A stretch of DNA of 64,000 nt from Maribacter flavus (lineage in GTDB: Bacteria > Bacteroidota > Bacteroidia > Flavobacteriales > Flavobacteriaceae). The notes beneath the pieces were generated by a model. The model did not search any database. It saw only the letters and a program-made list of their open reading frames with translations, and was not told where the DNA came from. A program made the translations under genes and the position numbers. Each line of letters starts with the position of its first letter. Position 1 is the stretch's first letter. Positions 11,194 to 24,167 of this stretch are shown here, one piece after another. The stretch is taken from the NCBI RefSeq assembly GCF_008386635.1, contig NZ_VUOE01000001.1:806001-870000 (forward strand), read 5' to 3'.

Positions 11194-12573
11194 TTAGTGT
11201 TTCGGTAGTTTAACTTCCCAATATCCTCTCGTTCCACCCACACGCCCTATATATCCAGCATCCTTTAAATTATTAAGGTGTTTCTGAATTGCAGATTCAT
11301 TGATATGTAAAACTTCAGCTATACCCGAGCGACTTATCCGATTATCTTGAGCAATTAACTTCAAAACTTCTTTTTGCCTATGAGTTAATTCAGAAATAGC
11401 CTCGATATCCTTTTCGATTTGACCACCTATTTGACCACCTTTTAGACCACCCATTACACCACCTATTTGACCACCTTTTGCACCACCATCTTCAACAGTA
11501 GTTTCTTTAGCTACAAAAGTCATTCTAAGAAAGTTGTCAGAAAAGCTAAAGTTCTCTTTGCCATAATGTTCCAAAATACGAGGAATGCCCGAACCTAATT
11601 GTTCTACCAGTTCCAAGTCCTTGAAAATTCGCATCAGTTCTTTGTTGCGTGGCACGGAAAAGCCCTCAAAAAACTCTTGCTTGCTCAAACCTTCAGGAAG
11701 TCCGCCAGCCGAAGTAATCTCAATCCTATCCACAAAGATTTCAAACTTTGGGGTAATCTCATTGGTATAGTCATTATGTACAAAGGCATTGATAATTGCT
11801 TCACGCAAAGCGATAGGATTCCAAAGATTGGTCTGTTGCCGTTCTTTAGGGGTTATCTTGGTTGTGGTTCTATTTTCTACCGTAATCTTATCGATAACCT
11901 GCTTGGTCGCTTTAACCAAACATTCGTGGCCATATTCGTTGCTTTCAATAAGGTCTGTACGTGTCTTCCCTGAATACTTGGCAACCTTGATTGAGGTATT
12001 GTTCTTATCGGCCAAAAGATAACCGGCGTAATTGAATGCGCCATCCTCGGTAAGCAGTTCCAGATTCTTTGCAAAGGCTTTACCAAGATTATAGCCAGCT
12101 TCTTCGTAGTAGATTTTCAACTGGCCAAAGCTCAGGTCTTGTCGTCCAGCCTTAATTTTGCTGATGGAATTTCGAGTGCGCTTGGCAAAGAGCTCGTCTA
12201 TCATCTTTTGGGACATTGGCTCTACAGATGAGCCGATGCGGATGAAACAACCCTTTTCGCTCATCCCATATTTTTTGAGATGATAGGGTTTTTCGGGACC
12301 ACTGGCCACGATAATTTTAAGAACATCCTTATCATCCCGTTCTTCACTCACAATGTCAAACAGTCCCAATGCAGAAGGTCGGATGTTGTTCTTTAGCCTA
12401 TCCTTAATCTTAAGTTGGTCGCCGTCCGGGTCTGCCAAACCGTAAACATTTTCATTCTTGTCAATACCGATATAGAGAATACCACCCTCCCGATAGTTCA
12501 AAAAAGCAATGACTTCTTTTTCAAGTCCATCGGACAGTTCTCGTTTGTATTCTATACGGTTTGTTTCTGGCAT
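11194..12573 (-). CDS. AlbA_2 / HATPase_c_4 / winged-helix regulator-like protein
   Basis: 459 aa. The N-terminal AlbA_2 (Schlafen-related, putative DNA-binding) domain covers about 5-115, with E-Y-K-R-E-L and G-G-I-L-Y-I-G-I-D. The HATPase_c_4-type ATP-binding region includes E-A-I-I-N-A-F-V-H-N-D-Y (near 262) and Q-L-G-S-G-I-P-R-I. A Gly-rich stretch repeating G-G-Q-I-G-G lies near 362-385, and a winged helix (about 395-459) ends the protein. Proteins of this layout are usually annotated as transcriptional regulators, without known ligands. The gene is divergent from the TrlF-type gene (184 bp between starts) and could control it. Its 3' end faces the tra operon, 13 bp from the lipoprotein stop. 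Confidence 0.82.
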   Translation of the reverse strand: MPETNRIEYKRELSDGLEKEVIAFLNYREGGILYIGIDKNENVYGLADPDGDQLKIKDRLKNNIRPSALGLFDIVSEERDDKDVLKIIVASGPEKPYHLKKYGMSEKGCFIRIGSSVEPMSQKMIDELFAKRTRNSISKIKAGRQDLSFGQLKIYYEEAGYNLGKAFAKNLELLTEDGAFNYAGYLLADKNNTSIKVAKYSGKTRTDLIESNEYGHECLVKATKQVIDKITVENRTTTKITPKERQQTNLWNPIALREAIINAFVHNDYTNEITPKFEIFVDRIEITSAGGLPEGLSKQEFFEGFSVPRNKELMRIFKDLELVEQLGSGIPRILEHYGKENFSFSDNFLRMTFVAKETTVEDGGAKGGQIGGVMGGLKGGQIGGQIEKDIEAISELTHRQKEVLKLIAQDNRISRSGIAEVLHINESAIQKHLNNLKDAGYIGRVGGTRGYWEVKLPKH

Positions 12574-12757
12574 TCATTAAGGTAAATTAGGGGATAAAGA
12601 TAGTGATATTAAATTGTGGCATTTAGCAAAAAACAGATATAATAGGATTGCGGTGATTTAATATGAAAGAAAATATTTGTTAAAACTAAACTGAAATGAA
12701 CTGTTAAAATCCACAAAATGTTAATTAACTTTAGCGATTTTAATAACCTATCTTTTT

Positions 12758-15613
12758 ATGAATAAAGGCGCAAAATTTTATCGATGTGATTTCCAAGTAC
12801 ACAGCCCTCGTGATATTGCTTGGACAGGTTCACGTTTTGGTGTAAGTGAAGAGCAAGTAGAAGGCTTAACTCAAGAAGATAAACAGCAAATTGATGATAA
12901 CCGAAATCAATTTTGTAAGGAATATTTAGATAAGATAAGCAGTGCAGGAATTGACGCCATCGCTATGACAGACCATCACGATGTAGTTTTTGTCCAGCAC
13001 TTAAGAAGAGTCGCCATAGAGCAGAATGAGATACACGAGATAATGGGCGAGCCAGAGAAAAAAGTTACGGTTTTCCCAGGCATTGAACTCAGCCTATCCA
13101 ATCCTGCAAGTCAGGCCATTATTATTTTTGATGCAGATTTCGAGGACACCCATCTCAACTCAGTCCTTAATTTTCTTGGGATACAACCTACAGACGCTTA
13201 TGATAGACAAACGGTTCAAACCCAGAGAATTTCCCAAGAGGTAATCAACAACCTTCCCCAGCTTCATAAAATTTTAGATGAAGTAAGTTATTGTAAAGGT
13301 AGGTACATTGTACTTCCTAATGTTGGGAAAGGTGGCCAACATTCCATAATACGTCAAGGCTTCCAAGAACACTACGTTAAAATGCCTTGCGTTGGCGGTT
13401 ATGTTGATAAGGAAATATCACAGGAATCCGGTTATCAAAATAAAATTAACGGTGGGGATGCAAACTACGGAAACAAAAGCATAGGTCTTGTATCTACTTC
13501 AGATAATAGGTACGAGGACGGTCGTGAGTTTGGAAAATATTCTACTTGGGTTAAATGGGCAGAACCAACTGCAGAAGCTATTCGGCAGGCCTGTTTGGCC
13601 AAAGAATCCAGAATTTCTCAGAATGAGCCAGAAATGCCTCAAATATTTATTGAATCGCTGGACGTTACAAATTCTAAATTTCTGGGTGGTTTCAATATCA
13701 ACTTCAATCAACAATATAACGCATTGATTGGTGGAAGAGGAACTGGCAAGTCAACTATTTTAGAATACATACGATGGGGATTGTGTGACCAAACGGTTAA
13801 AATAGGCAACTATCAAGAATTGGATATTATTCAGAACCGAAGAGATACGCTAATAAGGAAAACGTTGACAGCCGTTGAGGGTGAAGTAAGAATTACGATG
13901 GTGAAAAATGATGTCCGCCACATCGTTAAAAGAAATTCTGCCAGCAGAGAAATACTTTTGAAAATTGGTGATGGTGAATTTCAAAAAGTTAGTGAAGAAG
14001 ATATCCGGAAAGTACTGCCAATACAATCATATAGCCAAAAACAACTTAGTGATGTTGGTGTAAAGACAGAAGAACTAAAGCGGTTTATAGAGCAGCCTAT
14101 TAAGAGCAGCTTAGAGCGTACTTCTTACAATTTAGACGAAACAAATCTAAAACTCAAAACTGCTTACAATCAATTAGTACGCAAAAAGAAAGTGCAGAGT
14201 GAGATAGCAAATTTCAATATTGAAGGTAGTTCTATAAAGGGCCAAGTTAAAGGTATTCGAGAGTCTTTAAAAGGGATTTCGGAAGCTGACCAAAAAACCA
14301 TTAACAAAAAATCAAAATTTGAGTTAGAGAAGACAATTATAGAAAATACTGAATCTGAACTATCGCTTTTTGAGTCTAAAGCTGATGAGCTTCTTGAGCT
14401 TTTAAAATTATACCCAGAACCTATTGAACCTCAAATTGATAACATAGAGAACAAGGATTTGATAGAAAATCTTAATACAGAGGTCAAAGCAAAATTCAAA
14501 AACATCAATGAAGCTGTTCAAAATTTGAAGGATATTTTCAATGAAAGTGGATTAAAGCGGTACACTGAAATTGTAGAAGAATGGGGGAAAAAGCAAGCGC
14601 AGTTTGATAGTGAATATGAGGCTGCCAAGGGGAAATCCATAGCAAGTCAAGAACAACTGACGAATATTAAAAAACTCGAAGACCGTCTGGCAGAGATTAA
14701 TAGTTTAGTTGCCGATAGGAAATCAGTATTAAAAGAGCTTGGAAATCCAGAAAACGACTATAACGCCCATAAAGAAGAATGGAAGGATCTACACTTGGAA
14801 AAAGTTCAGGTATTAAATGATCAGGCAACAAATTTCACCGACTTATCAAATAAACTAATCAAAGCAGTAGTTACCAAAAATATCAATCTTGCTAATTTCA
14901 AGGAAAAATTACGTTCTATTCTTGAAGGAACGAGAATCAGAGAAGAGCGAGTAGATGCACTAATAGCACATATCCGCAGCAAAGCTGACCCAATTTCTGA
15001 ATTTATAGCGGTCTCGGAAGAATTAAGATTATTGGCAGAATTTAAACTTGACGAAGAGAATCCAGAAGAATTACCATCTACACCAATCTTGGACACAACC
15101 GGATTCACCGAAGACCACAAATTAAAGATACAATCCAAAATCACAACCGATGACTGGCTACAATTGACAGCAACAGAATTAGAATTTGACCCTGAATTCT
15201 TTTATACAACAAATAACGAACTTGGCGATGAAATCCCCTTTCGAGATGCATCAGCTGGGCAGCAGGCTACGGCACTACTTACAGTATTACTCAACCAGCC
15301 CGGAATACCTTTACTAATCGACCAACCCGAAGATGACATTGACAATAGAGCCATTGATGCAATAATCCAAAATATCTGGAATGCCAAAAAGAAAAGGCAA
15401 TTGGTTTTTACGAGCCATAATGCCAATTTGGTAGTTAACGGTGATGCCGAATTAGTGATTTGCTGCGATTATAAAGACGCCAGTTCACAAACAAGAGGGA
15501 TTATCAAAGCTGAAGGTGCTATTGACACCAAAGAGATTAAAAACGAAATTACATCTGTAATGGAAGGTGGCGAAAAGGCGTTCAGGCTTAGAAAAGATAA
15601 ATATGGATTTTAG
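12758..15613 (+). CDS. PHP-domain plus SMC-like ATPase (TrlF-family type), probable defence cargo
   Basis: 951 aa. The N-terminal PHP metal-dependent phosphoesterase domain has V-H-S near 14-16, T-D-H-H-D at 71-75 and F-P-G-I-E at 106-110. An ABC/SMC-type ATPase follows: Walker A G-G-R-G-T-G-K-S-T near 325-333, a long coiled-coil region about 450-760, the signature S-A-G-Q-Q near 832 and Walker B L-L-I-D-Q-P-E-D near 852-859. I know this combination under the name TrlF-family AAA-like ATPase, and PHP-ABC fusions are listed among predicted conflict systems. A DNA- or RNA-sensing ATPase gating a nuclease-like PHP domain is the likely logic. The stop overlaps the stop of the convergent coupling-protein gene by 4 nt. 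Confidence 0.83.
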   Translation: MNKGAKFYRCDFQVHSPRDIAWTGSRFGVSEEQVEGLTQEDKQQIDDNRNQFCKEYLDKISSAGIDAIAMTDHHDVVFVQHLRRVAIEQNEIHEIMGEPEKKVTVFPGIELSLSNPASQAIIIFDADFEDTHLNSVLNFLGIQPTDAYDRQTVQTQRISQEVINNLPQLHKILDEVSYCKGRYIVLPNVGKGGQHSIIRQGFQEHYVKMPCVGGYVDKEISQESGYQNKINGGDANYGNKSIGLVSTSDNRYEDGREFGKYSTWVKWAEPTAEAIRQACLAKESRISQNEPEMPQIFIESLDVTNSKFLGGFNINFNQQYNALIGGRGTGKSTILEYIRWGLCDQTVKIGNYQELDIIQNRRDTLIRKTLTAVEGEVRITMVKNDVRHIVKRNSASREILLKIGDGEFQKVSEEDIRKVLPIQSYSQKQLSDVGVKTEELKRFIEQPIKSSLERTSYNLDETNLKLKTAYNQLVRKKKVQSEIANFNIEGSSIKGQVKGIRESLKGISEADQKTINKKSKFELEKTIIENTESELSLFESKADELLELLKLYPEPIEPQIDNIENKDLIENLNTEVKAKFKNINEAVQNLKDIFNESGLKRYTEIVEEWGKKQAQFDSEYEAAKGKSIASQEQLTNIKKLEDRLAEINSLVADRKSVLKELGNPENDYNAHKEEWKDLHLEKVQVLNDQATNFTDLSNKLIKAVVTKNINLANFKEKLRSILEGTRIREERVDALIAHIRSKADPISEFIAVSEELRLLAEFKLDEENPEELPSTPILDTTGFTEDHKLKIQSKITTDDWLQLTATELEFDPEFFYTTNNELGDEIPFRDASAGQQATALLTVLLNQPGIPLLIDQPEDDIDNRAIDAIIQNIWNAKKKRQLVFTSHNANLVVNGDAELVICCDYKDASSQTRGIIKAEGAIDTKEIKNEITSVMEGGEKAFRLRKDKYGF

Positions 15614-17052
15614 TTGAATATCGACCTCGCCTCATCATAAACCCGCTCAAAATTTGCTCTTAAATCCGCATCAGAATATCGTTTTGTGCTCTGTGGAAGT
15701 TGCCTTTCGATTTTTGATAATTTGAACCGCACTTTCTTGTCCTTTCCATCAGCGAACGTGACAAACTCACCTTGCTTTAATCTGAAGAAAATATCTGCCC
15801 TTCTTTTGGAAACCTCTCTTTCGCCTTTTGTGATTCTGGTATCCGTTTTAAAGATGTTGGCGGCTTTGCTCACGCTTTTCGTAGGGTTTTTAATGATTTC
15901 AAAGAAGCGTTCATAATATTTAGCGGTGTCTGGGTCGTTGACCTTGCCAAAGAATTGATAGGAAAGATTGCTCAGAATGGCCTTGCTTGCCTTATCACCA
16001 TACATCATATCGTTTTGTATCTTATCCTGCATCACATAAATGGTGGCGATATCATAGCTTCGCAGTGTCGCTGGAATGCGGTGCATATTGAGTAAGCGAA
16101 TGGTCGGTGCTTCTTCCATTAATAGAAATGAAGGTTTGGAATTACGCACACTCATCTGTTTGGTGATGGTGTGGATGATGGTTGCGATGACAGGCGAATA
16201 AGAAGTCTCAAATTTGGGATTGTTCACTACGGAAATAACTGCTGGATTTTTTGTGCTATTGATATTCAACGGCACTTCATCTGCGGACAATGCCATAAAA
16301 ATCCGTTGCGTACTGATGCGTTTGAGCGCATTGGCCAGAGTGCTTTTTACGCCAGCGGTCTGCCGTTCGGAATCTTTACCACTTATGAAAGCATCTGCCA
16401 TTGCCCTCGATGTGGTATTGGTTTCCAGAAACTGGACCAGGCTATCGGTATCGAGCATTTGATAAATCGCAATTAAATGGGGCAACGTGCAGAACTGAGA
16501 GTAATCGGATTTCATCTTCCAAATCAATCCGCCAATCAACCCTTCAGCAGCATCGTTAAAGAATTTTGTCGTCCCAGTTGTTCCGCTTTCTCTTTGTTCT
16601 AATAGATTTTCGATTAGTACCCTTGACACTTCATTGACGCTTTCCTCATTTTCCAAATAACGCGGCGCAATGGGATTGACCCGATGGATAATCCTGTCAA
16701 ATGAAATAACCTTCATAGGAATTTCACCATCAGCAAAAAGCGGGTATGCCATTTCGGTTAGTTCAAAATCCTTGTAGTCGTGTATGATTCCACAGAAATC
16801 GTTTTCACGAAAGTGTTTTAAAAAACCATATACCACACTTTCGGTCTTTCCGCTTCCTGCAGAACCGATTATAGATGCACCACGTTTGATGTTATCGATT
16901 TTGAATTTTCCGGATTTGGTGAGAAATTTTACTTGATACCTTTTATCCTTTTTACCGGTGGGTTCACTATCGTAAAGCGCATAAAAAAGTATGGCTACAG
17001 ACAGGATTGGCACTACAATATAGATGAGTATTTCTACCAATGACCAATTCAT
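15610..17052 (-). CDS. mobC: Coupling protein of the mobilization region (TraD/VirD4-like, MobC)
   Basis: 480 aa. One N-terminal membrane helix (about 6-25) is followed by Walker A G-S-A-G-S-G-K-T at 63-70 and a Walker-B-like segment with F-L-L-M-E-E-A-P-T. The protein is an inner-membrane ATPase that hands the relaxase-bound DNA strand to the secretion channel. It is short compared with VirD4/TraD proteins (about 600-700 aa) but usual for MobC of Bacteroidetes elements. Its start overlaps the relaxase stop (ATGA), so the two are coupled. Confidence 0.86.
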   Translation of the reverse strand: MNWSLVEILIYIVVPILSVAILFYALYDSEPTGKKDKRYQVKFLTKSGKFKIDNIKRGASIIGSAGSGKTESVVYGFLKHFRENDFCGIIHDYKDFELTEMAYPLFADGEIPMKVISFDRIIHRVNPIAPRYLENEESVNEVSRVLIENLLEQRESGTTGTTKFFNDAAEGLIGGLIWKMKSDYSQFCTLPHLIAIYQMLDTDSLVQFLETNTTSRAMADAFISGKDSERQTAGVKSTLANALKRISTQRIFMALSADEVPLNINSTKNPAVISVVNNPKFETSYSPVIATIIHTITKQMSVRNSKPSFLLMEEAPTIRLLNMHRIPATLRSYDIATIYVMQDKIQNDMMYGDKASKAILSNLSYQFFGKVNDPDTAKYYERFFEIIKNPTKSVSKAANIFKTDTRITKGEREVSKRRADIFFRLKQGEFVTFADGKDKKVRFKLSKIERQLPQSTKRYSDADLRANFERVYDEARSIFN

Positions 17053-18080
17053 ATCCCAATAGAACTTGATTTCACAGCGATTTCAGCACCTTTACGCAAC
17101 CGCTTAAAAACCCGAAGTGCCAATTGTGCTTTACTGGTCGGGATGTTTGGAAGTAGTGGGATTCCTGACTTGCCCATTATCTTAAAAGCCATTGCCTTGT
17201 CATTGGCTGGTAATTTCATCAAAGCAGCAAAGTAGAGTTTGGGATTTTTTACAAAATCTTTCTTCGCTTTGTAGGTTTCAGCATAGTTGCGTTTGTAACC
17301 AAATGTTTTATCAAAAGTCTTTTCGGCACGCTCAAAAAACTGGTCACGGTCAAAACCACGCTTTACTTTTTTACCGTGCATCTCAACTTCAGAGGCTTTG
17401 TGTTTGCTCCCTGGGGAAAGACTAAACGAATTTGAAGCATCCTTTCTGCTCACGATGATGTGGATGTGGCTTTGGTTTCCAGGTTTCTTCATTCCCTGAA
17501 CGATGCGTTTGCCATTTTGTTGGTGTGGTGCTTCTTTTTCCAACTTTCCTATCTTCAGTTTTAATCGGTCAATATTGCCTGTTACCTGACCTTGTTGAAT
17601 GCGCTTGACTTCCTGTTTCAATTCAAGGATTTTAGTGGCAAAGGATTGATTTTCCCTCACCTGAAAATCTGTGCCCTTAAAGGTGCGTTGGTGTTCAATT
17701 TTGGCGAAGTATTTAATGTCATCAACATTAACTGGTCGCCCATTGATTTCCCGATTGAAGCTGGAAGCATAATCTTTCATCAGCTCTCGGGTGTATCGTT
17801 TTAAATCTTCACTACTGCTCTCAAGCTTTCGTAATTCATATTTGGATGGACTTACTGTGATTGAATAGAATTTTGGTTCTTTCTTTTTGAGTTTTGCCGT
17901 ATTTCCGTCAATCTCTTTGACCGCTTCTTTAGCTGAAATCTCATCACCATATTGGTTAAAAAAGTGTTCCATTTCTTCTTTTTCCAGACCTTCGTTTTCC
18001 TTTTCGAGATAGTCCACAAAATCTGCTGAGCTCTGACTATAATTAGTTCCTAATTTTTGTGCGGTGATGTTGATATACAT
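17049..18080 (-). CDS. mobB: Relaxase, MobB/BtgB type (DUF5712)
   Basis: 343 aa. The metal-binding motif H-I-H-I-I-V-S-R is at 205-212 (H205, H207), with a possible third His in K-I-E-H near 130. N-terminal Tyr residues (Y2, Y14, Y24) are candidates for the nicking tyrosine. The family, annotated as DUF5712 or BtgB, cuts the transferred strand at oriT and stays bound to its 5' end. The gene is 10 nt downstream of mobA and overlaps mobC. The adjacent inverted-repeat block at 18,481-18,663 is the likely substrate. Confidence 0.84.
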   Translation of the reverse strand: MYINITAQKLGTNYSQSSADFVDYLEKENEGLEKEEMEHFFNQYGDEISAKEAVKEIDGNTAKLKKKEPKFYSITVSPSKYELRKLESSSEDLKRYTRELMKDYASSFNREINGRPVNVDDIKYFAKIEHQRTFKGTDFQVRENQSFATKILELKQEVKRIQQGQVTGNIDRLKLKIGKLEKEAPHQQNGKRIVQGMKKPGNQSHIHIIVSRKDASNSFSLSPGSKHKASEVEMHGKKVKRGFDRDQFFERAEKTFDKTFGYKRNYAETYKAKKDFVKNPKLYFAALMKLPANDKAMAFKIMGKSGIPLLPNIPTSKAQLALRVFKRLRKGAEIAVKSSSIGI

Positions 18081-18090
18081 AGCCAGGGCT

Positions 18091-18471
18091 TTAAAGTTGA
18101 TTTGAGTTATTTCGCTTTTCTTGAAACTTAACTTCTTTATTTTCTTCTGCGAATTTCTTTTCCAAAATCAGCGGTTTCTTTTTTGGCTCATCCATTTCAA
18201 AAAGGGATTGCAACATTGCGACCGTGGGTTTGGTTTGAGTCTTTTCCACATCACGCATTATGGCAATGACCGCGTTAATTCGCTTCAATAATTTTGCTTC
18301 TATGGTGCGCCCGGTCGGACCTAAATTTTCCTTTGGTGAAATCTCGTTGTAGAAGAAAAAATCGAGGATGGCTTCCATCGCCTCGGTGTGCGTCTTGAAG
18401 TGTGTACGTGAGAATTCCTGAAAACGTTTTGCTGTTTCTTTCTTGAACCTGATACCAATAAATGTGTCCAT
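18091..18471 (-). CDS. mobA: Mobilization accessory protein, BfmA/BtgA (MobA) type
   Basis: 126 aa. The N-terminal half (I-G-I-R-F-K-K-E-T-A-K-R-F-Q-E-F) has a ribbon-helix-helix-like character, and the C-terminus is highly charged. This matches the BfmA/BtgA mobilization proteins that bind oriT and help the relaxase. Two identical 13-bp sites lie immediately upstream (18,481-18,535), which suggests that the protein also represses its own operon. The gene is first in mobA-mobB-mobC. Confidence 0.82.
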   Translation of the reverse strand: MDTFIGIRFKKETAKRFQEFSRTHFKTHTEAMEAILDFFFYNEISPKENLGPTGRTIEAKLLKRINAVIAIMRDVEKTQTKPTVAMLQSLFEMDEPKKKPLILEKKFAEENKEVKFQEKRNNSNQL

Positions 18472-18480
18472 ATTTCGCCG

Positions 18481-18535
18481 ATTTGTCGCAAATCCTTCCC
18501 GAAAAATGGGCGTTTTGAGGGCATTTGTCGCAAAT
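18481..18535. promoter_or_regulatory. Two identical ATTTGTCGCAAAT sites upstream of mobA
   Basis: ATTTGTCGCAAAT occurs at 18,481-18,493 and again at 18,523-18,535. Each copy is itself a dyad (ATTTG / CAAAT around TCG). They are 42 bp apart start to start, four helical turns, so they lie on the same face of DNA. The first copy ends 10 bp upstream of the mobA start (18,471). They fit operator sites for the ribbon-helix-helix protein MobA, binding as cooperating dimers. Confidence 0.55.
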
Positions 18536-18592
18536 TACTGAAAATCAAAGAATAAAAATGAATCTAAACGATTGATTTTCAATGATTTGAAA

Positions 18593-18663
18593 ACGAAAAG
18601 GAATATGTAACATCGCAACGCGTGTTACCCTCTTGCTGTTCCTTTTCGTCCCGCTCACGGGAC
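18593..18663. other. oriT-like block of nested inverted repeats
   Basis: An 11-bp perfect inverted repeat (ACGAAAAGGAA 18,593-18,603; TTCCTTTTCGT 18,639-18,649) encloses a second hairpin (GTAACA 18,607-18,612; TGTTAC 18,623-18,628, with an inner CGC/GCG pair). GTCCCG-CTCA-CGGGAC follows at 18,648-18,663. The block lies upstream of mobA-mobB-mobC, where oriT sits in related mobilization modules. The nic site cannot be placed from sequence alone. The rest of the gene-free stretch 18,472-18,900 shows no further open frame. Confidence 0.55.
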
Positions 18664-18855
18664 AAAAATCCATACAATCCAGCTAAAAAGCTGATTGCCA
18701 TTTTCGAGGAAATGAAATTTCCGATACATTAATTTTCGATGGGTACTGTTATCGGCGAAAGTCAAAAAGTGGATAACTGTACTTAAATTGTGTGCTGTAT
18801 TTCAGCGAAATAAAGATACGATTTTTTCGTGATTATGAATGCACTAAAAATGAAA

Positions 18856-18879
18856 ACACCTCTGAAAATTCAGAGGTGT
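18856..18879 (-). terminator. Terminator after the 65-aa gene
   Basis: ACACCTCTGAA-AA-TTCAGAGGTGT forms an 11-bp perfect hairpin. On the minus strand it is followed by TTTTCATTTTT. It lies 22 nt past the stop of the minus-strand gene at 18,901-19,098 and separates that operon from the oriT-like block. Confidence 0.75.
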
Positions 18880-18900
18880 ATTTCTTTCAAAAAACATCAT

Positions 18901-19110: not shown

Positions 19111-19491
19111 TTAGTATTCACTTGGTAACATCAGCGTATCGTTCACAAAGAACATCCGCAATTCATCCAGTGGAAAATCGGTGGCATTATAGCGGTGGGT
19201 TTCCAAAACGTTGTCGTTTCCATCGCTGTAAATGATTTCAGCTTCGTAACCTGTAAAGTCTTGTTTTTCTTCGGACATTCTTTTAAAGTCAATCGTGATA
19301 AATTCACTTCGGTTCATCAGACTTTTAGCGATTACCGACGCATCCGTTATGAGCCAAAAACATTCAGCGACTTCGGCTAAATATTTTAAACCGTCAGTAA
19401 ATCGGGTTTTCAAAAGCGGTATTTGGTAGAACATTTCCGTTCCCGTAAAAAATTGCAACCGCTCTTTTATTTCGTTAACTTGTGTCTTCAT
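19111..19491 (-). CDS. DUF6876-like protein
   Basis: 126 aa, soluble. The segment F-T-G-T-E-M-F-Y-Q-I-P-L near 15-26, followed by T-R-F-T-D-G-L-K-Y-L-A-E and C-F-W-L-I-T-D, matches what I know as the DUF6876 family of Bacteroidetes mobile elements. The function is not known; such proteins are usually coded with ssb, DUF932 and ParB genes in conjugative elements, as here. It starts about 76 nt after the ssb stop. Confidence 0.7.
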   Translation of the reverse strand: MKTQVNEIKERLQFFTGTEMFYQIPLLKTRFTDGLKYLAEVAECFWLITDASVIAKSLMNRSEFITIDFKRMSEEKQDFTGYEAEIIYSDGNDNVLETHRYNATDFPLDELRMFFVNDTLMLPSEY

Positions 19492-19567: not shown

Positions 19568-19915
19568 TTACTCGTTGCCATTCTTTGTACCCAACAATAG
19601 GATTTCGTTGGCTTCGATTTCGGTTAGGTATCGTTTGATACCGTCCTTGTCCTCATAGCTTCGGGATTTCAGTTTTCCGCTTACGCCTACCTCTTTTCCT
19701 TTGACTACATACTTCTCTACAATTTCAGCAGTCTTGCCCCAGGCAACCACGGTATGCCATTCGGTGTTTTGCTCTTTTTCGCCTTTCTTGTTCTTATAAT
19801 ATTCATTTGTGGCGAGTGAAAAACGGGCTACCTTGCTTCCGCTTTCAAGGTTCGTAATGGTTGGCTCTTGACCAACGTTTCCAATCAGTTGTACGTGATT
19901 TCTTAAAGTACTCAT
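19568..19915 (-). CDS. ssb: Single-stranded DNA-binding protein
   Basis: 115 aa with a complete OB fold: L-I-G-N-V-G-Q-E-P near 11, A-R-F-S-L-A-T-N-E near 30, E-W-H-T-V-V-A-W-G-K near 51, and a basic hairpin S-G-K-L-K-S-R-S-Y. It lacks the long acidic C-terminal tail (D-D-D-I-P-F) that recruits host repair proteins, as is usual for short element-coded Ssb. It probably coats the transferred strand in the recipient or during replication of the excised circle. It lies just left of the structured gene-free stretch. Confidence 0.93.
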   Translation of the reverse strand: MSTLRNHVQLIGNVGQEPTITNLESGSKVARFSLATNEYYKNKKGEKEQNTEWHTVVAWGKTAEIVEKYVVKGKEVGVSGKLKSRSYEDKDGIKRYLTEIEANEILLLGTKNGNE

Positions 19916-20026
19916 AACTAAAATTTAAAGATTAATAATTCCCCTGTTTAATTAAATTGAGATGAAATTTTAAGGGGTGTTTGTTTGATTTCTTACGTGC
20001 GTAGCACAATGGGTGACGTGGGTTTT

Positions 20027-20485
20027 GTCAAGACTTTCAGGGAATAAATCAGGTGTGTCTGCGACGTAGTAAAATGCTCGCATTTTCAAGGAAGTAGATA
20101 CCTTATTTTTCGCTGAAACTTGTCACGGTCTTGACAAGTTCCATAAGGGCATTAGCAATTCTTTTAAAGCCGGTCGTGAGTTGAGCGTACGGGAAGTTAA
20201 GCGAGGCGAGCGATCGGGTTTAATTTAGAATTGGTTATGCACTGCCTGTTTTTCGATGCCCCGAAAAACATTCAAGGCTTCATCCATTATAAACCCCTTA
20301 AAATGTGTGGGCCGGTGCCGTGGTTTTTAAGAATTTTCGAGCAAGGGCTCAAGAAGTTCTTGCCGTAAATTCTGTTAAGAAAATCGAGGTGCTGGCCTTC
20401 CGATTTGGTAAGGCGGACTTAATTCACAATTTTCGCTCTGGAATGAAGTGTTCCTTCCCAGCCTAAGCGGGAAGGGTTAGCGAAA
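20027..20485 (+). ncRNA. Candidate structured RNA (or single-strand origin) in a 730-bp gene-free stretch
   Basis: Between ssb and the DUF932 gene there is no credible gene, but many paired elements. Hairpin 20,117-20,140: AACTTGTCA/TGACAAGTT. Long helix 20,149-20,162 with 20,227-20,240 (12 of 14 pairs), enclosing 20,167-20,176 with 20,211-20,220. Hairpin 20,247-20,255 with 20,262-20,270 (9 perfect). Helix 20,310-20,319 with 20,388-20,397 (10 pairs, three of them G-U if read on plus), enclosing 20,330-20,336 with 20,367-20,373. Helix 20,431-20,437 with 20,479-20,485, enclosing 20,453-20,459 with 20,469-20,475. The 8-mer GTCAAGAC at 20,027 can also pair with 20,128-20,135. The G-U pairs favour a plus-strand RNA, opposite to the neighbouring genes. 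A structured DNA origin is the alternative. Confidence 0.45.
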
Positions 20486-20647
20486 TGGAAAGCTGAAATT
20501 GGGGATTGTGTCCAAGATATTTGCAGTGAAGCTCTTTTCCCGGAATGTAGGGAAACGGAATGCAGGGGAATGTGCTGAGTGGTTTTAGTAGTACGGATTT
20601 GTAATAATGGAAAATCCAGTTTAAGGTACTGGATATACCTTTTAAAG

Positions 20648-21484
20648 CTATGCCAGGGCATACACTTCATCGAACAACTTTTTATCCAATAGTTCCTGTT
20701 GGCCGAAACTCTTTTTCAGCACATTGTGCAATACCGAATTAAAGGCATTATAACCTAACCAGAGATTTGGTTCTTCATCAACTAAAAGAGCTTCGTAATT
20801 GAGGATTTCCAAAACCTCTCTCGACTTCTTCGATGGGTCGCTGTTTTTATCGCTACATTCATAGCGGAACAGTTTGGTTCTGTCAAGAATGGCTTTTACG
20901 AATTCTTTAGTATCGATGATTTTAAATTCCTTCATCCTATCAAACTTCTTGGTTATGGTATAGAATTCATTGTCAAGAAATTTATCAAACAGGTTGTTCA
21001 ACCTTGGCATTATGAGGTCTGTATTGTTCCTGCTGTGCTTTATCGAAAATTCGATTTCAGCTTGTGAGACGTGAAGTCCGTTGGAACATACTTTTCGATA
21101 GAATCCGAAGTGGCCAGAGGTCTTTTCGCTACCATCATACGAGTTCTTGAACCTTAACATTGGCAGTATCAAGTCCTTATCATTCTTAACAGTAAACTGG
21201 CTTTTGTCGTCTATGATAAAATCGGTAATGAAAGACCTATCATTTTTGTTGATGGTGCGCTTGTGATAATTTAATCCGGCATCAGTTAACATTTCCTCTG
21301 CTTTCTTGAAGAACAGTTGGTTCGGTATGTGGCCATAACTGTTTGATACCACGTTAACGATTTTGCCATTCGAAATGATGGCATTTTCAAGTCCGCGACG
21401 GGATTCCATCTGGGTCAGGTTTTTCAAAGATTTCATTTCGTTTGAAACGAAAATCTCATCTTGTTGCAAATTTTGTAAATACAT
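20648..21484 (-). CDS. DUF932 protein (phage/plasmid-like)
   Basis: 278 aa. The pattern P-M-L-R-F-K-N-S-Y-D-G-S near 107 and F-G-F-Y-R-K-V-C-S-N-G-L near 126 marks DUF932, a family common on plasmids, phages and conjugative elements, with no proven function. No membrane segment is seen. It follows the 52-aa gene by 17 nt and is probably driven by the leader repeat at 21,671-21,830. Its stop is next to the structured gene-free stretch. Confidence 0.85.
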   Translation of the reverse strand: MYLQNLQQDEIFVSNEMKSLKNLTQMESRRGLENAIISNGKIVNVVSNSYGHIPNQLFFKKAEEMLTDAGLNYHKRTINKNDRSFITDFIIDDKSQFTVKNDKDLILPMLRFKNSYDGSEKTSGHFGFYRKVCSNGLHVSQAEIEFSIKHSRNNTDLIMPRLNNLFDKFLDNEFYTITKKFDRMKEFKIIDTKEFVKAILDRTKLFRYECSDKNSDPSKKSREVLEILNYEALLVDEEPNLWLGYNAFNSVLHNVLKKSFGQQELLDKKLFDEVYALA

Positions 21485-21914: not shown

Positions 21915-23702
21915 CTAATCCTTGAGCTCTTGGATTTTCTTTTCAAGAACTGCGATACGCTCTTTCAAACGTGCTTCACGCTTGTTTCGTTTCTCAGCAT
22001 AGCTCTTCTCAATGTCTGCAATCTTGGATTTGTAATATCCCTGCATCGCATAGTAAAATGAAATATTCGTGAGGTTATTGTTATGGTTGCTTTCGCTAAA
22101 ATGTACTTGCTTCGTGAGCATATACCGAATCAACTTGTGAAAGATTTCCTTTTTGAAATTCTTCTTGAAATGCTCGACTATTTCAACCCTGGACATTTTC
22201 GATGTTTTGGCGAAAAATCCTGAAAAGCATTTTTGCCGGCTCATATAGTCCACATTGTTTTCAAAGAGTGAAATGGAAAACGCAACCATTTCATCTACCG
22301 AAAGCGTTTTTTTGGTATCGATATAATCCGTCTCACGAATCATCTGCACCACTTCCTCAAATTGCTTGTTGTTTTCAATCTGTCGCTTGCGGATTTCACG
22401 CTCGTTGATTTTGATGATTTGTTCTTCGGGCGTACAATCTGCCATTTTCCTATTGGCCAATGGTGCTGAATATTCAGAAGAATCATTCTTTAATTTCTCA
22501 ATCACTTTTATGAAAACATTCTTGTTTTGATATGTTTCAGGATGGAAGACGATACCATTTACAAAACCATTCTTTTCTGCTGAACAATACGTTTTCAGTT
22601 CTTCCTTATATTGCTGAATAGCCTCTTTGAACTCTGCTTTCAGTTCATCCTCGGAATAATCATAATGCTGATATTCAATCTTAATGGCATCCATTGTCGG
22701 CTCGATAGGATTCTCTATAATTTCGACATCGTCCAGCAAATAGACTTTCAATCCATTATTTTCCAGTTGGGAAATAACGAGCTGATTTTTTTCTTCATCA
22801 GCCCAGTACTGTCTTATTTCAGGAATGAGCAAAAGGTTTTTTTTCTTGGATTTTTCAATAAGGTTCAAGAACGATTTGGTCTTTTTCGTCTCAAAACAGG
22901 GCGATTTCGTACAGACCATCTTGCCTTCACCAAAAAGGTTACCTTGATTCGCAGCATTGAATGGACATTCTACACAAGAACCCGCTTTAACCACCAAAGT
23001 CTTATCGGCTACATCAAAGGGTGCTTTTTCCAAATCATAGGTTCGATTGTTTATCATTCGGTTTATCTGATGTGCATTGAAGTCTTCGCCCATCGTTTCC
23101 AGCATCATCTGTTGTTCCTCTGGCTCAAAAAGTGCGACACCAACACCTAACGAAATGGTCATTTCACCATTGCGAACAAAATGTTTGAAACCGTCAATCA
23201 ATCCAGCCAACTTCAAACGTTGTCTTATGAAATTGTCGGTTCTTCCCAAACGCTTTGCGATTTCAGAGGGTTGATATTTGTCGCTTAGATAAGCTATCGC
23301 TTCGGCTTCTTCGGTAGGCTCTACGTCCTTTCTTTGCAAGTTTTCGATGATTTGAACTTCCAACACTTCATCGTTTTCATAAGTTCTTACTATACTGGGA
23401 ATTGTATTCTTTCTGGCAATCTTGCTTGCGCGAAATCGTCTTTCGCCCATAACGATGATAAAGTCCTTTCCAGATTTCCGAACCGTTATCGGTTGTAGCA
23501 CACCAAACTCTTTGATACTATCCGAGAGCTGTTTTAGCTGTTTTTCATCAAAGGTCTTTCTCGGTTGCTTGGGGTCAGGCTTAATTTTGCCAATTGGAAT
23601 GTTCTCGATTTGAAGTACCGGAACTTTTTTTCCGTTAACTTCTTTCTTCGCAGTAGTTGTTGTACTTCTACGCTTTCTTGTGGTACTTGCTTTTGTTGTC
23701 AT
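21915..23702 (-). CDS. parB: ParB/RepB/Spo0J-family protein
   Basis: 595 aa from the ATG at 23,700-23,702; a TTG three codons upstream is possible. After a basic Thr/Lys-rich N-terminus comes the ParB CTPase core: G-E-R-R-F-R-A at 86-92 and E-N-L-Q-R-K-D-V at 120-127, then a helix-turn-helix (P-S-E-I-A-K-R-L-G-R-T-D near 147). A four-Cys stretch (C-V-E-C ... C-T-K-S-P-C, about 242-268) could bind zinc. The C-terminus is a Lys/Glu-rich coiled coil. No parA is seen nearby, so it may be a stand-alone ParB that regulates the element or aids maintenance. It has its own leader (copy B) and terminator. Confidence 0.9.
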   Translation of the reverse strand: MTTKASTTRKRRSTTTTAKKEVNGKKVPVLQIENIPIGKIKPDPKQPRKTFDEKQLKQLSDSIKEFGVLQPITVRKSGKDFIIVMGERRFRASKIARKNTIPSIVRTYENDEVLEVQIIENLQRKDVEPTEEAEAIAYLSDKYQPSEIAKRLGRTDNFIRQRLKLAGLIDGFKHFVRNGEMTISLGVGVALFEPEEQQMMLETMGEDFNAHQINRMINNRTYDLEKAPFDVADKTLVVKAGSCVECPFNAANQGNLFGEGKMVCTKSPCFETKKTKSFLNLIEKSKKKNLLLIPEIRQYWADEEKNQLVISQLENNGLKVYLLDDVEIIENPIEPTMDAIKIEYQHYDYSEDELKAEFKEAIQQYKEELKTYCSAEKNGFVNGIVFHPETYQNKNVFIKVIEKLKNDSSEYSAPLANRKMADCTPEEQIIKINEREIRKRQIENNKQFEEVVQMIRETDYIDTKKTLSVDEMVAFSISLFENNVDYMSRQKCFSGFFAKTSKMSRVEIVEHFKKNFKKEIFHKLIRYMLTKQVHFSESNHNNNLTNISFYYAMQGYYKSKIADIEKSYAEKRNKREARLKERIAVLEKKIQELKD

Positions 23703-23712
23703 AATACTCAAA

Positions 23713-24082: not shown

Positions 24083-24085
24083 TAG

Positions 24086-24167
24086 TGCGGGTGAAGGGAC
24101 TCGAACCCCCACACCTTGCGGCATCAGATCCTAAGTCTGACGTGTCTACCAATTCCACCACACCCGC
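24086..24167 (-). tRNA. tRNA-Leu (anticodon UAG), likely integration target
   Basis: On minus the acceptor arm GCGGGTG pairs with CACCCGC at the 3' end. The anticodon arm CAGA-CTTAGGA-TCTG places TAG in the loop, and the T arm has GGTTCGAGTCC. A long variable arm and GGTAGACAC in the D region fit class II tRNA-Leu. CCA is not encoded. The 3' end faces the conjugative element, the usual orientation for integration into a tRNA gene. Confidence 0.93.

Follow-up and report, generated by a model that had tools for sequence, protein, structure and literature searches.

The structure of the gap between ssb and DUF932

The window analyzed in this study is a 64,000-nt stretch of Maribacter flavus DNA and appears to be part of a conjugative element in a Flavobacteriaceae genome. 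Read from right to left, its minus strand carries a ParB-family gene, a DUF932 gene, a gap of 732 bp, ssb, a DUF6876 gene, a 65-aa open reading frame (ORF), a gap of 429 bp, and genes for a BfmA/BtgA-like protein, MobB, and a MobC-like protein. We investigated the gap between ssb and DUF932, in which an earlier note on this DNA had proposed a structured element within a gene-free stretch of 730 bp. Covariation in homologous gaps confirmed it. Matches in other genomes split the gap into module A (gap positions of about 50-390, where many divergent matches end sharply), module B, and module C (about 498-670). The gap, its modules, and the adjoining gene are located as follows:

19916-20647: gap of 732 bp, flanked by the start of ssb (minus strand, 19915) and the stop of DUF932 (minus strand, 20648)
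19967-20304, plus strand: module A, the core module, a multi-branched fold of about 340 nt in the RNAalifold consensus, closed by ATTTTAAGGGG/CCCCTTAAAAT, 51 nt upstream of ssb
20304-20402, plus strand: module B, a nested hairpin, 20304-20328/20379-20402 around 20330-20349/20355-20373
20412-20579, plus strand: module C, a hairpin 20415-20435/20493-20513 that encloses an inner one, followed by another hairpin at about 20530-20541/20565-20576; model R2 gives 179.5 bits, the window sequence itself being part of this model
19568-19915, minus strand: ssb (PF00436, 6e-35; TIGR00621), the first gene after module A when the minus strand is read

The closing helix of module A is 19967-19978/20293-20304. 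Inside it are the conserved helices 20018-20035/20127-20144, 20148-20177/20210-20241 (both sides changed in 21 of 26 pairs), and 20247-20270 (both sides changed in 5 of 9 pairs). Much of this had been drawn by hand in the earlier note. Its nested helices 20149-20162/20227-20240 and 20167-20176/20211-20220 correspond to the conserved helix 20148-20177/20210-20241, its hairpin 20247-20270 is kept, and its helices 20310-20319/20388-20397 and 20330-20336/20367-20373 are likewise conserved, being parts of the two longer helices of module B. The hairpin 20453-20475 is also conserved, with the register one base off at its foot. Helices 20117-20140 and 20431-20437/20479-20485 can be drawn, but they compete with the conserved helices 20018-20035/20127-20144 and 20415-20435/20493-20513, respectively. 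The proposed extent, 20027-20485, did contain structure, but it missed the closing helix of module A and began about 60 nt late.

The folding energy of the gap was -256.1 kcal/mol on the plus strand (z -8.2) and -179.6 kcal/mol on the minus strand (z -9.0; 20 shuffles per strand). With DNA parameters, the values were -115.6 (z -7.6) and -92.1 (z -7.4). Both strands therefore fold beyond chance and z alone separates no strand; the energies and the comparative data favor plus. When 319 segments of 200 nt were ranked by the plus-minus energy difference, three segments of the gap took ranks 1, 4, and 5. By z-score, gap segments ranked only 12th and 14th in the same scan, and 20401-20600 was not among the 18 listed.

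Covariation and the folding strand

For module A, 100 matches were reduced to 85 distinct sequences of at least 340 nt and then to 66 at 96% identity. Covariation was evaluated against a tree-based null that preserves the tree and the number of changes per column (our own script, not R-scape). As a result, 18 of 121 structure pairs had E<0.05, and both pairs that were significant in a one-set test fell inside the structure. In the 3' half of the module (33 sequences), both sides had changed in 28 of 37 pairs, with 139 such cells compared to a shuffled mean of 39, and none of 500 shuffles reached the observed count. Shifting the partner by 1-3 columns lowered the paired cells from 91% to 36-49%. 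Module B, for which counts only were taken, had 1376 Watson-Crick, 207 G-U, and 32 A-C cells out of 1696 (46 nonredundant sequences). In module C (27 sequences), both sides had changed in 15 of 38 pairs, with 40 cells against 12.7 after shuffling. Covariation in homologous gaps, the check suggested in the earlier note, was seen in A and C, weakly for C under the tree null. These results demonstrate that the structure in the gap is real and conserved.

We then compared the mismatches on the two strands, using pairs common to the plus- and minus-optimized folds that are Watson-Crick in at least half of the sequences. The ratio of G-T to A-C on the plus strand was 151:31 in A and 145:50 in C. Therefore, the plus strand is the strand under selection, that is, the folding strand. 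The earlier note had chosen the same strand from three G-U positions in the helix 20310/20388, which are present as described.

Coding sequence in homologues had been named there as a possible refutation. Module A was found to be non-coding: all six frames carry 4.9-6.0 stops per 100 codons (66 sequences), which rules out coding for A. The gap has no Rfam match at the gathering threshold or at E<=1, in agreement with the view that no known RNA family is involved.

Distribution of the modules and a second fold

A blastn search (E<=0.01) matched some part of the gap in 124 of 397 genomes of the family, the weakest matches being possibly due to chance. The covariance model R1 found 58 of the 397, the own genome counted. 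Several genomes had more than one matching place. Beyond the family set, R1 matched 7 of 395 genomes in a phylum sample and 7 of 246 in an order sample under stricter filters that may lose weak matches; these are the same seven genomes, all from one family. No blastn match to the gap was obtained in phage and plasmid collections.

Module C was also found alone, and extra copies recur in related elements upstream of other leading genes; no conserved flanks of these copies were seen by eye. The stretch separating ssb from module A varies in length and sequence among homologues. At the other end of the gap, the stretch at about 20611-20643 belongs to DUF932, because it is kept beside that gene in many loci without a match to A (e.g., L033 and L036). 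One genome holds three divergent copies of A (L193, L194, and L195), of which one has a BfmA-like gene (30% identity) at a distance of about 1 kb and another adjoins an ORF resembling, by eye, a tyrosine integrase.

In five related loci (L061, L068, L077, L089, and L105) with no blastn match to A, we found that A is replaced upstream of ssb by another structure of about 420 nt, designated A'. It is a long hairpin on the same strand as A. Its pair cells comprised 642 Watson-Crick, 109 G-U, 7 A-C, and 49 others, and its z ranged from -5.4 to -7.3 on plus and from -3.1 to -7.0 on minus. In the three loci checked, the strand opposite to A' carries a short lysine-rich ORF immediately before ssb (L061:9369-9548, L068:9153-9293, and L105:6208-6486). 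The constraint on A' may in part be coding, because this ORF lies opposite the hairpin arm.

Position and orientation relative to the mob genes and ssb

The mob genes and the remaining features around the gap are:

15610-17052, minus strand: MobC-like coupling protein (PF10412; NF041326, 4.5e-46 but under its curated cut-off)
17049-18080, minus strand: MobB-family relaxase (NF041495, 1.4e-123; PF18976)
18091-18471, minus strand: BfmA/BtgA-family mobilization protein (NF041200, 3.2e-24)
18472-18900, no strand: candidate origin of transfer (oriT), the 429-bp gap upstream of the mob operon and the BfmA-like gene
19111-19491, minus strand: DUF6876 gene (PF21781, 2.6e-32), between ssb and the mob genes
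20606-20642, minus strand: hairpin at the 3' end of DUF932, probably its terminator and separate from the element
20648-21484, minus strand: DUF932 gene (PF06067, 1.5e-15), upstream of the gap
21915-23711, minus strand: ParB-family gene (PF02195, TIGR00180)
24085-24167: tRNA-Leu

The oriT likely lies in the gap at 18472-18900, in which the nic site was not located. Within this gap, the 13-nt sequence ATTTGTCGCAAAT occurs at 18481 and again, as a direct repeat without mismatch, at 18523, and there is an inverted repeat at 18593/18639. A search of the relaxase against solved structures gave no match.

Across 38 loci with a mob gene, all 38 distinct A and all 33 distinct C sequences stood on the strand opposite to the mob operon and upstream of it. 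This count includes matches of about 90 nt or longer, with identical sequences scored once; the relaxase of L165 was added by hand. Module A was 433-3752 nt from the start of the mob operon (38 distinct A). According to PMC11541004, anti-defense genes and SSBs are encoded on the transferred strand (T-strand), with the relaxase typically lagging. If this order holds, the strand opposite the mob genes is the transferred strand, since the relaxase enters last.

Module A mostly adjoins ssb but is not tied to it. It lay within 150 nt of the ssb start in 83 of 91 distinct sequences, with seven more having no ssb in the fetched locus and one having ssb elsewhere; collecting loci by the gap or by DUF932 favors ssb neighbors. 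Of 42 distinct placements, 41 put it 25-109 nt upstream of ssb and the remaining one at 485 nt. Module A was found near mob genes without ssb in L159 and L160 (tyrosine integrase, BfmA-like), L164 (MobB), and L165, which has a serine recombinase and a PF03432 (MobA/VirD2-like) relaxase of a family other than MobB. No relaxase was seen in the stretches of L159 and L160, which may be remnants.

Module C had 16 placements before genes other than ssb in the sense of the gene, nine of them at 73-128 nt. Two of the nine (L004 and L105) concern ORFs inside A or the ssb leader, so seven remain. Judged by the next ORF of at least 80 aa, the sense was the same in 68 of 69 placements of C and 47 of 49 of A; eight hits had no such ORF, partial hits were excluded, and some of the ORFs are due to chance (e.g., in L004 and L105). 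The conserved fold, its strand, and the way it is placed and oriented with respect to mob and leading genes are direct observations.

In L092, L089, L078, and L146, copies of C stand between leading-region cargo genes in a cassette-like array, and module C may double as a recombination point. A HipA-like gene (L163:9000-10253) and an AbiEii-like gene (L164:7098-8090) adjoin modules as cargo of the toxin-antitoxin type.

Comparison with known single-stranded DNA elements

Leading-region promoters of single-stranded DNA (ssDNA) and single-strand origins (sso) are best described in Enterobacteria and Firmicutes. PMC11541004 describes Frpo as a ssDNA promoter in the ssb-upstream region of plasmid F and places it directly upstream of SSB genes. 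Among the titles listed in open-access literature searches, judged by titles and abstract openings, none concerned such an element in Bacteroidota, and none was found in a search on DUF932 and the leading region.

As a control, we compared the gap with F, whose transferred strand was taken as the strand opposite its leading genes. The ssb-upstream region of F folded at -239.3 on the presumed T-strand compared to -211.9 on the gene strand. In F and nine relatives, the G-T to A-C ratio on the presumed T-strand was 44:3 for pairs that are at least half Watson-Crick and 13:1 for pairs common to the folds of both strands. In the leading region of F, SSB, ParB-family, and DUF932 genes share one strand and point toward traM, beside which the oriT of F lies; the three families are also present here. 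Since a known ssDNA region shows the same bias on its presumed transferred strand, the G-U argument of the earlier note does not separate RNA from ssDNA.

Like Frpo and the single-strand initiation (ssi) sites of F, the element lies in the leading region of a conjugative element (judged from a presumed oriT), ahead of ssb or other leading genes, and has a stable and better fold on the transferred strand as assigned from mob gene orientation, with a G-T excess. For Frpo, there are 1-7 matching places per listed plasmid. It differs in its multi-branched module A, its Flavobacteriaceae host, and the occurrence of A without ssb. No sequence homology was found: at E<=1, neither model R1 nor model R2 matched the leading region of F. 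According to PMC4595007, sso1 of ICEBs1, an integrative and conjugative element, is located downstream of oriT and functions in a single orientation. Our element is likewise a folded region near a presumed oriT with a fixed orientation (38 of 38 distinct A), but it has repeated modules and adjoins ssb, and the likeness to sso1 and to the sso of rolling-circle plasmids is one of location, not of sequence. The best reading of these results is a new, sequence-unrelated leading-region element like Frpo, ssi, and sso, whose function we infer.

It is probable that A, B, and C together form a single-strand element in the leading region of a Flavobacteriaceae conjugative element, one that would prime the second strand and maybe also start early ssb transcription. 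The plus strand, as the T-strand, would enter the recipient 5' end first from an oriT near 18.5-18.9 kb, and A, B, and C would fold on it soon after entry. The folded modules, acting as DNA, could recruit host RNA polymerase or primase, and the RNA made on the folded template would prime second-strand synthesis. Where ssb is just downstream, as here, the element may in addition serve to start its early transcription, in the manner of Frpo in F. If this reading is right, the family illustrates how, in one group of Bacteroidota conjugative elements, expression or copying may begin once the DNA is in the recipient. Covariation with G-U pairs could then also be a mark of folded DNA, and some of the structured RNAs proposed for mobile elements may in fact be ssDNA sites.

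Several points weigh against this interpretation. The nic site and the T-strand polarity are deduced, for F as well. Most loci are related elements collected by similarity to the gap or DUF932, so the counts are not independent. Module A looks more complex and more RNA-like than a hairpin promoter. In module C the phylogeny-corrected covariation is weak: with 87 sequences, 2 of 49 pairs pass the tree null and none passes in the one-set test, so its support comes mainly from conservation and stems. One of the five A' loci, L089, has a minus z exceeding the plus z (-7.0 vs. -5.4). By the next ORF, A is in the opposite sense in L112 and L138 (2 of 49) and C in L117 (1 of 69). A -35/-10 pair or host equivalent within the folded stem, as in Frpo/ssi, was not found: neither TTG-N17-21-TAnnTTTG nor TTGACA-N15-19-TAnnnT occurs on either strand of the 66 A and 87 C sequences, although degenerate host promoters could escape such patterns. 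The recruitment of RNA polymerase is therefore hypothetical. In L159, L160, and L165, the stretch from A to the mob or relaxase gene has no listed ORF of at least 75 aa, and a role purely as ssb promoter does not work in these loci. Of two Flavobacteriaceae plasmids with another ssb, the upstream region is T-strand-biased in L217 (z -6.1 vs. -4.2) and unstructured in L216 (z -1.1 vs. -1.7), which is typed as non-mobilizable.

More tentatively, the modules may represent a class of ssDNA regulators in Flavobacteriaceae mobile elements, in which exchangeable cores (A or A') and a repeated promoter-like C recruit a Bacteroidota-type polymerase or primase without a known promoter sequence. We doubt this somewhat more than we believe it. 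Such a class would consist of DNA that is backed by covariation, evolves in the manner of a structured RNA, and sets the timing of gene expression and second-strand synthesis in the recipient.

Alternative explanations

The element could serve second-strand synthesis alone, as a single-strand initiation site or sso that adjoins ssb only incidentally. Its presence near mob genes in loci without ssb agrees with this, as does the place downstream of the presumed oriT, which fits sso1 as described in PMC4595007. However, copies of C stand like promoters before separate genes, and 83 of 91 distinct A adjoin ssb, so we regard this narrower form as possible but doubtful. The earlier note had offered a single-strand origin as its rival to an RNA, and this is closer to what the evidence favors than its antisense RNA.

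Conversely, the element could be only a Frpo-like ssDNA promoter for ssb and other leading genes, with no priming role. The spacing of A upstream of ssb (25-109 nt in 41 of 42) and of C upstream of other genes (73-128 nt in seven placements) is what such a promoter would show. The Flavobacteria -7 consensus, given as TAnnTTTG in PMC9723704, was found upstream of ssb on the minus strand in 1 of 87 sequences compared to 17 of 87 shuffled ones, a shortage that also speaks for this form. On plus it was found in 8 of 87 against 30 of 87 (one mononucleotide shuffle each), and with a spaced TTG in none of 87 against 2 of 87. The motif is thus rarer than in shuffles on both strands, which argues against an ordinary promoter on either. 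This argument is weakened because the exact motif is absent in the gene's sense from 11 of 13 window gaps tested, the ssb gap included. A promoter-only role is unlikely, since A is kept in loci without ssb or another 75-aa ORF before the mob gene and 6 of 13 checked leaders downstream of C have their own TAnnTTTG/A box.

A plus-strand structured non-coding RNA, oriented antisense to the leading operon and exerting its effect in trans or through interference, would look no different in its strong covariation, its many nested helices, and its G-U pairs on the plus strand; it resembles the Rfam structured bacterial RNAs in covariation and nesting. In contrast to those families, it matches nothing in Rfam, and its position and strand follow the transfer genes: all 38 distinct A lie opposite mob genes, one of them with another relaxase family. 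The known ssDNA region of F carries the same G-T bias. A conserved plus-strand promoter was not found, which is a weak point as most other window gaps also lack the motif. With the variable stretch between ssb and A and the C flanks unconserved by eye, the separate antisense-oriented transcript of the earlier note is not supported. Such an RNA is quite improbable, and most likely the gap holds no RNA gene.

Finally, the minus-strand ssb mRNA could have a structured 5' leader or a riboregulator here. Such a leader would suit an element directly upstream of ssb, but it is very improbable, since C also lies upstream of other genes and the strand asymmetry in A and C disfavors it: the minus-optimized fold of A has more A-C than G-U on minus (172 vs. 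110), and that of C has 146 A-C against 197 G-U on minus, yet 145:50 G-T to A-C on plus at well-paired positions.

Other genes of the window

Between the tra and mob genes, at 11194-15613, the window holds a Schlafen/AlbA-type gene on the minus strand and a large ATPase-like gene on the plus strand. These two genes are possible defense cargo.
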